Source: Deferribacter autotrophicus
GTDB lineage: Bacteria > Chrysiogenota > Deferribacteres > Deferribacterales > Deferribacteraceae
Assembly (NCBI RefSeq): GCF_008362905.1
Contig: NZ_VFJB01000004.1
Span: forward strand, 124,001-188,000
Length of the DNA: 64,000 bases
Reading direction: 5' to 3'
Shown piece by piece: positions 57,642 to 59,560 of the stretch. Made by a program: the position numbers and the translations under genes. The number at the start of each line of letters is the position of its first letter. Within the stretch, counting starts at the first letter, position 1. The notes under the pieces were generated by a model. That model saw only the letters and a program-made list of their open reading frames with translations, was not told the DNA's origin and made no database searches.

Positions 57642-57956
57642 CTAACCAACTTTAATATCTTTTACTCTTATTTTGGTATAATGCTGCCTGTGGCCATACC
57701 TCTTTTTGTAATCTTTTCTTCTTTTCTTCTTGAAAACCAATATCTTTTTATCTTTACCGTGCTCAAGAATCTCAACTTCAACTTTAGCATTTTCAACTTT
57801 TGGAGCACCTAAAATAAGATCTCCGTCCTTAGCCACAGCAAGTACTTCCTCAAGCTCAAGAGTTGCACCCTCATCAGCATTGAGCTTTTCAACCTTCAAT
57901 ACATCTCCAACCTTAACTGTATATTGTTTACCACCTGTCTTTAATATAGCAAACAT
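57642..57956 (-). CDS. rplU: 50S ribosomal protein L21
   Basis: A 104-residue L21 ([47 protein letters not shown] in part, and the end [11 protein letters not shown]). It binds 23S rRNA next to L20. It has a good GGAGG ribosome site and a promoter about 40 nt upstream. Confidence 0.97.
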
Positions 57957-57994
57957 CTATTATCACCTCCATATTAGCACATTGGGAAGAGGTT

Positions 57995-58022
57995 TATATA
58001 ACATTTTAACACATCAAGTCAA
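57995..58022 (-). promoter_or_regulatory. promoter of rplU-rpmA
   Basis: On the minus strand TTGACT (58017-58022) is followed after 16 nt by TATATA (57995-58000). The transcript would carry a leader of about 30 nt. Confidence 0.6.
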
Positions 58023-58080
58023 CAAAAATTTTGAAAAACTTTACATATAGGTATAAATATATCTATCAAAATAAAGTTAC

Positions 58081-58460
58081 CAAAGAAAAAGAGGTTTTGC
58101 AATACTTTCTTTTTATGGCATCACCCCCAATTTTTGTAAACATCATAGTCATTCGGTAACTGGTGAAATGGGAAGGTAGAAAAAGTTCAACGTTCTCACA
58201 TTTTCTTATATCGTAACACGTAATGGGTAATGCGTAAAGCGTAAATCACGACTTGGGAAAAAACGTGTAAGTGTAGGTGTGAGTGGAAGTGTAATAGGTC
58301 GTTATGCGTAATGCTTGACAAGTAGATGAGTATATTTAGTTGTATGGTTGATAGTAGATGTTCAGCACTCTAATGTTTTAACGTGTCAACGTTCTAACGT
58401 TTCCTCATATTTTCTGTTCCCTCAACCTAAGCCTCAACCTTGAACCTTGAACAAGTAAAA
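58081..58460. repeat. intergenic tract of degenerate short-word repeats
   Basis: No coding frame is supported. The sequence is built from variants of short words. At 58212-58248 successive units are GTAACAC, GTAATGG, GTAATGC, GTAAAGC and GTAAATC. At 58264-58314 GTGTAAGT, GTGTAGGT, GTGAGTGG and GTGTAATA appear. At 58188-58199 and 58387-58402 variants of AACGTTCT occur. At 58420-58453 CTCAACCT and TTGAACC units occur. Composition differs from the flanking AT-rich DNA. It is not a CRISPR, since unit length is only 6-8 bp. Confidence 0.6.
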
Positions 58461-58498
58461 TAAAGATAACTACATACCACCATCTATCTTTTGCAAAA

Positions 58499-59560
58499 TC
58501 ACTTTATTTCTTTTAACTCATAATCCAAACTTCCCAAACCAAGTTTTTCAGCATGCTTAAGTTGAACTATCGGATCAATATAATCATATATACTTTTAAA
58601 AGGGTCCCCACCTACTCTTTTTAACACCATATCATAGCAAGCTTTATCCAGAGCCACCGGATCTGTTGATGCAAAAAAACCTATATCCTCACATACCGGC
58701 TTATCATTTCCAGGATAACAGTCGCAAGCAGGTGAAATATTTGTAGCAATAGTAACATAAAGAATATTTCCTCTCAAAGCCCTGTGTACCCCATAGGCAT
58801 ATTCAGCCATTTTTAATGATGTATTTTCTGCCGTTTCATCCCAGTTTATCCCAATTGCCCCCTCAGGACATACAGCAATACACCTTGCACAACCGGTACA
58901 TTTGTCAGTAATCACGGCAAAACCCTTTATTTCAATGGCATCTGCAGCGCATGCAACTTTGCAATAGCCACAAGCTGTACATTTATCTTTGTGCACCTTT
59001 GGACGGGTAACTGAGTGCATCTCCAGTTTACCTTCTCTTGAGGCACAACCCATGGAAAGGTTTTTTATGGCTCCACCAAAACCTGATACCTCATGCCCCT
59101 TAAAATGACTTACACAAACCATCCCATCTGCATGTACAATATCTGCAGCAAGTTTTACTTTATCTAAAAGCTCACCATCAATAGAAACTTCCACACTATT
59201 TTCACCCCTAAGACCATCAGCGATAATTACAGGCACCTGCAGAGTAGAATAATTAAAACCATTTAAAAAAGCATTATGAAGATGATCCACACTGTTTGTT
59301 CTCATTCCAACATAAAGTGTATTTGTATCGGTTAGATAAGGCTTTGCTTTTAAATCTTTTAGTACCTCAATTATAGGTCTCAAATAAATCGGTCTGATAA
59401 AGGCAGTGTTGCCAAATTCACCAAAATGCGTTTTTACTGCAACCAGCTTATTTTTACCGAAATATTTTTCAGGCGATAATTTTTTGAAAAGTTTTTTAAT
59501 TTTATTCAAAGGTGAATTCAATTTCTTGTTACTCAAACTTGAAAAATAAACAACTGACAT
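58499..59560 (-). CDS. DUF362 protein with two 4Fe-4S clusters
   Basis: A 353-residue protein. The DUF362 region (VAVKTHFGEFGNTAFIRP, LTDTNTLYVGMR, VSHFKGHEVSGFGGAIKNLSMGCASR) surrounds a ferredoxin insert at about residues 193-250. The insert has CTACGYCKVAC and CTGCARCIAVCP, enough for two 4Fe-4S clusters. A further Cys group (PACDCYPGNDKPVC) lies near 280. Function of the family is unknown, probably redox. It is divergent from the nitroreductase gene. Confidence 0.85.
   Translation of the reverse strand: MSVVYFSSLSNKKLNSPLNKIKKLFKKLSPEKYFGKNKLVAVKTHFGEFGNTAFIRPIYLRPIIEVLKDLKAKPYLTDTNTLYVGMRTNSVDHLHNAFLNGFNYSTLQVPVIIADGLRGENSVEVSIDGELLDKVKLAADIVHADGMVCVSHFKGHEVSGFGGAIKNLSMGCASREGKLEMHSVTRPKVHKDKCTACGYCKVACAADAIEIKGFAVITDKCTGCARCIAVCPEGAIGINWDETAENTSLKMAEYAYGVHRALRGNILYVTIATNISPACDCYPGNDKPVCEDIGFFASTDPVALDKACYDMVLKRVGGDPFKSIYDYIDPIVQLKHAEKLGLGSLDYELKEIK

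Follow-up and report, generated by a model that had tools for sequence, protein, structure and literature searches.

The window analysed here, a stretch of 64,000 nucleotides from Deferribacter autotrophicus, belongs to a genome of 2.54 Mb in 10 contigs (G000). Between rplU and a putative DUF362 gene, both on the minus strand, it contains an intergenic tract of short, changing words (Table 1). From left to right, the tract passes from a transposon-like end (58116-58179), which has no word block, through a GTTCAACGTTC block, the CGTAANN and GTGTAN words, a CGTAATGC echo and the AACGTTNN and CCTNAACC words to TTGAACC; 58081-58115, the first 35 bases of the stretch singled out in an earlier, sequence-only reading, are non-word sequence. 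The upstream gene owes its label to that reading; the NCBIfam matches listed for it are to ferredoxin domains only and fall below the cut-off.

Table 1. Features of the rplU locus (positions in the window).
Feature	Position	Strand	Basis
rplU (50S ribosomal protein L21), downstream neighbour	57642..57956	-	TIGR00061, E 4e-35
Intergenic gap, 542 bp (G001: 106 bp)	57957..58498	.	ORF calls and comparison with G001
Promoter-like TTGACT-N17-ATATAA upstream of rplU, also in G001	57994..58022	-	Alignment with L138, read by eye
Transposon-like left end: terminal repeat TGGCATCACCCCCAATTTT (58116-58134) and subterminal stretch common to L041, L059 and L038	58116..58179	+	
AAAAAGTTCAACGTTCT linker and word block	58180..58199	+	
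CGTAANN words (GTAATGG, GTAATGC, GTAAAGC, GTAAATC)	58212..58251	+	
GTGTAN words, period 6	58265..58300	+	
AACGTTNN words, period 8	58369..58402	+	
CCTNAACC words, then passing into TTGAACC words	58420..58452	+	
Upstream neighbour, putative DUF362	58499..59560	-	ORF; orthologue in G001, 82% identity

The word runs quoted in the sequence-only reading are all present in 58081-58460, and TRF lists the following as tandem repeats: CGTAATG (58219-58244), GTGTAA (58265-58294), TCTAACGT (58369-58401) and AACCTTG (58436-58452). As in heptameric SSRs, units of about 7 bp stand head to tail with fixed and variable positions, here with periods of 6, 7 and 8. The tract had been called unlike a CRISPR, and indeed its units of 6-8 bp have no spacers, vs the repeats of 23-50 bp and unique spacers that such an array requires. 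A decayed ordinary gene, the alternative named at the time, is not supported, as there is no ORF of at least 50 aa in 58081-58460, no frame like those of the IVP genes described below, and no gene at this place in the same-genus genome G001. A long hairpin was likewise rejected, the DNA fold (z +2.0) and the RNA fold (z +0.95) being no better than those of shuffles. Rfam at gathering thresholds returned five tRNAs only across the window, and the promoter-like sequence before rplU was not called by the scan tool.

In G001, 106 bp separate the orthologous genes, the tract is absent, and the sequence directly before rplU is conserved. Compared with the 542-bp gap in G000, this identifies the rplU tract as a lineage-specific insertion. 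The suggestion of an inserted array is therefore supported, and like arrays edge inserted units elsewhere (see below).

The left end of the tract is of MITE type. Its terminal repeat matches the pattern of a local family (terminal repeat TGGCRTCACCCCAWTTTTT) with 2 mismatches. Aligned with 14 family or tract ends, the left end outscores all 300 shuffles in 12 cases. The terminal repeat of this family occurs 39 + 38 times in the genome at up to 3 mismatches, with 0 control matches. Terminal inverted repeats at both ends characterize a MITE; the right end of the rplU tract gave no convincing match (best score equalled by 11 of 300 shuffles), so that only the left one was found. Direct repeats of 8-11 bp were seen by eye beside other MITE copies, and none is assignable in the window tract. 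The likeness to the family lies in the left end; several copies contain a hairpin instead of words, unlike the rplU tract (L046, L050 and L066, about 235 bp each, have a hairpin). One 1508-bp copy between the same terminal repeats carries a gene that we take to encode an IS110-type transposase. In this copy (G000 C4:267598-269105, the one translated), the ends of the 235-bp MITE enclose the transposase-like gene, as though a putative IS110-type element had inserted into a MITE copy; other terminal-repeat pairs about 1508 bp apart are also found in G000. At L039, L059 and L136, word tracts contain or adjoin another small palindromic element, whose ends resemble AACCCGTGTAATA / AACCCGTGAAATA.

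The rplU tract could hence be an ordinary MITE copy, unconnected with IVP genes, in which slippage produced microsatellites throughout the interior before the copy decayed. This would account for its left end, for the word tracts L038 and L041, each of which sits between two MITE ends, and for the multi-unit higher-order repeats seen in some arrays (partly by eye), which are duplications. Most intergenic tracts, on the other hand, lack a strict terminal repeat within 300 bp, and for this and further reasons given below we consider a simple MITE origin unlikely.

We sampled the window and 40 stretches of 20 kb (864 kb of G000). The sample contains 98 periodic tracts, vs 9 in one second-order Markov control; 52 of the 98 lie mostly outside ORFs of at least 80 aa, some of these 52 being AT-rich low-complexity sequence and not words. 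By crude ORF calls, the sample has 28 gaps of at least 100 bp that bear words. The sequence-only reading had described the tract as unlike the rest of the window. This holds for the window itself, where three of the other four periodic tracts lie mostly within ORFs and one (35991) has 11% GC, but not for the genome, in which kindred tracts recur. The search for the same words in other intergenic regions, proposed in the same reading, was rewarding: other G000 gaps bear the word blocks of the rplU tract, partly in the same order, and the order is common to six tracts in alignment. Per 200 block-shuffled partners, the window's score was equalled by 0 for L002, 1 for L004, 1 for L005, 0 for L007 and 6 for L003; five of the ten remaining tract pairs are weaker (equalled by 5 to 21 of 200 block shuffles), including L007-L005, which scores higher in reverse complement.

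In 19 of 20 tandem gaps of G000, the words are closer to the stop upstream than to the start downstream, vs 7 of 12 gaps with MITE repeats. Divergent positions account for 2 of 40 word gaps vs 26 of 156 others, a difference that is not significant (p 0.075). Paired arms were found in 7 of 14 gene-less G000 tracts chosen for examination (the window tract among the 14). One of the 7 is L004, a tract that can be aligned with that of the window; in L038, L045 and L135, MITE repeats may account for part of the pairing. At L106:12450-12720 (G000 C3:72.5 kb) a word tract lies within the apparent degenerate end of a CRISPR array (repeat ...CTGTTCGAAGGGATTGCGAC). GTGAGA/GTGAAA words in an apparent open frame at L014:1400-1620 (G017) yield a serine-rich low-complexity stretch, and words may thus invade coding sequence.

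The word TTGAACN also occurs beyond this species. Three tandem TTGAACN units occur 156 times in G000 and 124 times in G002, a member of another family, vs 2 times in G001. Of 50 genomes sampled from the phylum, 9 have such triples and 0 the reversed pattern. TTGAACN as a universal bacterial word was rejected, since none of 398 genomes from the phylum to which L033's genome belongs has it (reversed control, 2 of 398). Arrays of four units are present in 90 stretches of IMG/VR, and the fourteen examined have 40-64% GC. The same word in genomes of other families and in these virus contigs argues against an ordinary MITE copy. One array had no BLAST match in plasmids or phages under low-complexity filtering, and no named relatives of three virus contigs were found in the phage collection. 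The virus loci contain 47 distinct gene-less inverted pairs of one polarity vs 1 (29 loci). Before removal of repeats the count was 61 vs 1, and the initial reading of this polarity as cruciforms was abandoned.

A neutral slippage product or an assembly artefact would not be expected to place one word at dozens of loci with the distribution just described (9 of 50 genomes with the reversed pattern in 0, and 0 of 398 in another phylum). In its favour, bacterial period-7 repeats are over-represented, which has been ascribed to polymerase slippage (PMC4692102). Given the distribution of the word, the flanks conserved with G001 and the contrast between core and spacer letters described next, we regard this explanation as very improbable.

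Among internal units of TTGAACN arrays in G000 (those between two exact cores), the core is exact in 92 of 100, and in 80 of 100 the free base is unlike that of its neighbour. The G002 loci keep the core in 36 of 43 units, with a free base unlike the neighbour's in 31 of 42; the corresponding figures for the virus loci are 277 of 333 and 133 of 329. In arrays found without a presupposed word, deviations are concentrated in few columns (475 vs 412.8 +/- 13.2, with 0 of 2000 simulations as high, for the 43 of 48 intergenic arrays that have at least 3 deviations). For 36 arrays in called ORFs the concentration was 350 vs 324.9, equalled by 54 of 2000 simulations. The six-letter cores with one free base between are led by GTTCAA (18) and TTGAAC (17) among 165 intergenic cases, with the next at 3; these two account for 11 and 5 of 312 such cases in called ORFs. 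The rare core changes mostly adjoin the free base: GTTCTA appears in G000, G002 and the virus loci, and GTTCGA and GTTCAG in G000 and the virus loci.

A uniform drift of words is rejected, since six of seven letters are conserved and one is near-random: neutral drift that saturated one base would destroy the other six. The TTGAAC core is thus either recognised or regenerated, and this, too, speaks against microsatellites decaying inside a MITE. The slippage put forward in the sequence-only reading is retained to the extent that some arrays consist of multi-unit higher-order repeats, and drops out as a source of uniformly drifting words. Its other proposal, a template-independent writer, was not supported. 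A Y1 transposase as spreader has no match in G000, and a reverse transcriptase as writer has no RVT_1 match in G002, where arrays abound; the two genomes share neither. G000 has one reverse transcriptase, and a diversity-generating retroelement, for which such a gene must be in the genome, does not apply to G002. At G000 C9:252905-256504 (L273), the RVT_1-confirmed reverse transcriptase gene adjoins a variable-protein-like frame, presumably for a C-lectin/FGE-type protein like those of diversity-generating retroelements.

Three genes of the family 23S_rRNA_IVP / TIGR02436 (IVP genes), which also resembles the retroelement factor Avd, lie in a hot spot at C6:1-20 kb of G000. In this region (L123, C6:1-20000), sugar-nucleotide/glycosyltransferase-like genes, as judged from translations, lie behind an IS21-type transposase pair; the three IVP genes are accompanied by over a dozen word tracts, with GATCACN, AGTNATC and AATAACTATA as further words. 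With an in-house IVP profile, further IVP genes were detected at word loci in G000, G008, G010, G015 and G021 and at three virus loci; in the six of these that were read, word arrays flank the gene on one side or on both. We therefore took up IVP-bearing plasmid records, of which 22 of 44 formed the set (19 Cyanobacteriota and 1 each of Gemmatimonadota, Bacteroidota and Pseudomonadota). Inverted-complement flanks (score of at least 26) surround 14 of 22 plasmid IVP genes vs 2 of 86 control coding sequences from the same records (Fisher 2e-10). Periodic words occupy at least one flank of 18 of 22 IVP genes vs 13 of 86 controls, and both flanks of 11 of 22 vs 1 of 86. The 8 of 22 genes under the inverted-arm threshold include L281 and L289, with direct arrays, and L296, without a periodic flank. 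In a wider set, 17 of 29 IVP genes have inverted arms, and in all 17 the 5' arm has more G than C.

Tracts and IVP genes also co-occur in the sampled genomes. Samples of 398-864 kb per genome (400 kb each for G001 and G014) gave intergenic tracts and IVP genes in the numbers 36/3 (G000), 24/2 (G002), 29/4 (G010), 0/0 (G001) and 0/0 (G014). Each of the nine IVP genes has a periodic tract no more than 262 bp away (for 8 of them, within 100 bp), vs 10-13% of other ORFs by a similar, non-identical measure; the nine fall in four regions and are thus not nine independent cases. The three G000 genes (864 kb) are all in one island, vs 36 tracts. Of the 90 virus stretches with TTGAACN arrays, just 3 have an IVP gene by the in-house profile, and none was found in viral_contigs by close similarity or in phages by tblastn. 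As for the window, its tract has tandem 6-9-bp words in common with IVP flanks, and at least one of its word classes lies within 400 bp of 8 of 14 IVP loci in an uncontrolled count (e.g., L092, L025, Riemerella L288 and virus L197). A six-frame search of 57951-58560 with the in-house profile revealed no IVP (PF05635) remnant (best E 0.5), and the tract ends are not complementary (inverted score 18 vs a shuffle mean of 18).

Relatives without the gene show what was inserted. In Nostoc edaphicum, a 494-bp unit with start TTAGTAGGGAGTAGGG and end CTCCCTACTCCCTAG separates nrdA from nrdB; the same place in Calothrix NIES-4105 has 13 bp. Picosynechococcus PCC 7003 has a unit of GGAGATAAG words and their complement between cmr2 and cmr3 that ends one base before the cmr3 start, vs 12 bp between these genes in PCC 7002; on the left, the two strains cease to be similar 21 bp ahead of the annotated cmr2 stop, and the last cmr2 codons hence differ too. 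An 849-bp unit with GTGACAGG and CTGTCACC words lies between cas6 and cas4 in Anabaena 90, its right array inside the annotated cas4 start. Dolichospermum 0315A has an unrelated 273-bp insert between cas6 and cas4; this site is thus not empty, but it has neither gene nor arrays. The insert (L380:828-1100, on a Dolichospermum plasmid) has complementary GTAGGTTGGGTT-type ends, and the cas6-cas4 site is possibly an insertion hot spot. In each of the three comparisons the arrays lie at, or within about 20 bp of, the unit edges, and in 3 of 3 the relative without the IVP gene is also without arrays. These three comparisons show that what was inserted is array-IVP-array, the arrays forming its edges or closely adjoining them. 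Together with the flanks and the co-occurrence, this association with IVP is what an ordinary MITE copy leaves unexplained.

Arrays could also be resident, selected protein-binding or RNA-regulatory sites, into which IVP elements insert because hairpin loops are their target; an IVP gene could then have entered pre-existing palindromic arrays instead of arriving as a unit. A fixed core with a free spacer would suit such sites, as would the polarity of the viral gene-less inverted pairs, and rRNA intervening sequences (IVS) are located in rRNA helices (PMC4990558, in part). In all three comparisons, however, the arrays were missing along with the gene, and TTGAACN triples number 2 in G001, of the same genus, vs 156 in G000. 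Furthermore, the words stand behind stop codons and not before starts, unlike the Beggiatoaceae TAACTGA sets (PMC4679880). Resident sites thus seem to us improbable.

Dispersed short-word arrays are known from several bacteria. The Xanthomonas GGGANTN and Nostoc GGGGAYT arrays are intergenic heptamers with fixed and free positions, length variation and some convergent inverted pairs (PMC4692102), and resemble our tracts in location, fixed and free positions and inverted pairs; their words are G-rich and quadruplex-forming, whereas the TTGAACN and AACGTTNN words are not. In the Beggiatoaceae, TAACTGA direct repeats are dispersed intergenic heptamers, sporadic across phyla, with one favoured word mostly just before starts (PMC4679880), in contrast to the many words behind stops found here. 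Octa- and heptanucleotide sets of Geobacter metallireducens are multicopy intergenic arrays like our tracts, partly in opposite-strand pairs and with variable spacing (PMC2700814); unlike here, they are proposed IHF/HU sites, and the part consulted draws no link to IVP. A term search of PMC4692102 and PMC4679880 found no mention of S23 or intervening sequences, and the open-licence literature searched contained no report of dispersed heptamer tracts joined to IVP genes.

Another close system is the Coxiella-type IVS with an S23p/IVP gene. The complementary ends of a 23S rRNA IVS form a stem that is cut by RNase III, and in Coxiella tandem heptamers (GACAGAT, the last unit varying) in strain-variable number precede the IVP gene, which lies between complementary ends as in the array-IVP-array units (PMC4990558, in part). 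The IVS are located in rRNA, whereas the units here lie between protein genes and the window copy is gene-less; in the part of PMC4990558 consulted, RNase III excision is described for rRNA IVS only. Plasmid AZO_p2 of Azospirillum lipoferum (L287) likewise has an IVP frame between CAGAGGACGG-type word arms inside an apparent 23S rRNA gene (by eye), linking plasmid word units to rRNA intervening sequences.

In the best explanation, to which we give a probability of about 0.6, the rplU tract is a gene-less, decayed member (or a pile-up of members) of dispersed word-array insertions whose complete form carries an IVP gene and has been published as the 23S rRNA IVS. It starts like a MITE, lies in a stretch absent from G001 and has words and block order in common with other tracts. 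As word repeats elsewhere form the two ends of an IVP-carrying inserted unit, it is probably a worn relative of such units; since it has neither IVP remnant nor paired arms, we infer its membership, and having no IVP gene it is classed as a gene-less relative and not as an IVS. Counting against this explanation are these two features, the lack of a stable fold, a left end of MITE type without a matching right one, the scarcity of IVP genes beside the G000 tracts and the virus arrays, the 8 of 22 plasmid IVP genes under the inverted-arm threshold, the cyanobacterial origin of 19 of the 22 plasmids, the partial genome samples, and the alternative that IVP genes enter palindromic arrays already in place.

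The complete form would consist of a 23S_rRNA_IVP gene (S23 / four-helix-bundle, Avd-related) between two reverse-complementary arrays of 6-9-bp words, the 5' arm being rich in G and the 3' arm in C. By analogy with the published 23S rRNA IVS, the transcribed unit may fold into a stem with the gene in its loop; if RNase III cut this stem in mRNA as it does in the rRNA IVS, insertion between the stop and start codons of an operon would be tolerable. Arrays would grow and shrink by multi-unit duplication, while a factor recognising the fixed core, with IVP as the first candidate, would preserve it. The window copy would have lost, or never had, its IVP gene; placed behind the upstream stop codon, it would leave the sequence before rplU intact, and it is probably neutral today.

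Dispersed bacterial heptamer repeats and the IVP/S23 family have both hitherto been without explanation, and, save for the heptamers within the Coxiella IVS, the open-licence literature searched treats them apart. Should IVP elements indeed end in such arrays, a single testable question would cover where the repeats come from, how rRNA intervening sequences spread and what a pentameric Avd-like protein does. More speculatively, and with considerable reserve, the orphan, Avd-related IVP proteins might be the agents of widespread mobile elements with word-array ends, each protein recognising the core and helping to copy, expand or insert the arrays. The gene-less tracts of this order, of cyanobacteria, of Xanthomonas and perhaps of the Beggiatoaceae, the rplU tract included, would then be non-autonomous offspring. 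In Xanthomonas campestris, judging from print, heptamer arrays (PMC4692102, in part) and an IVP protein, XCC0516 (PDB 2gsc), are both present.
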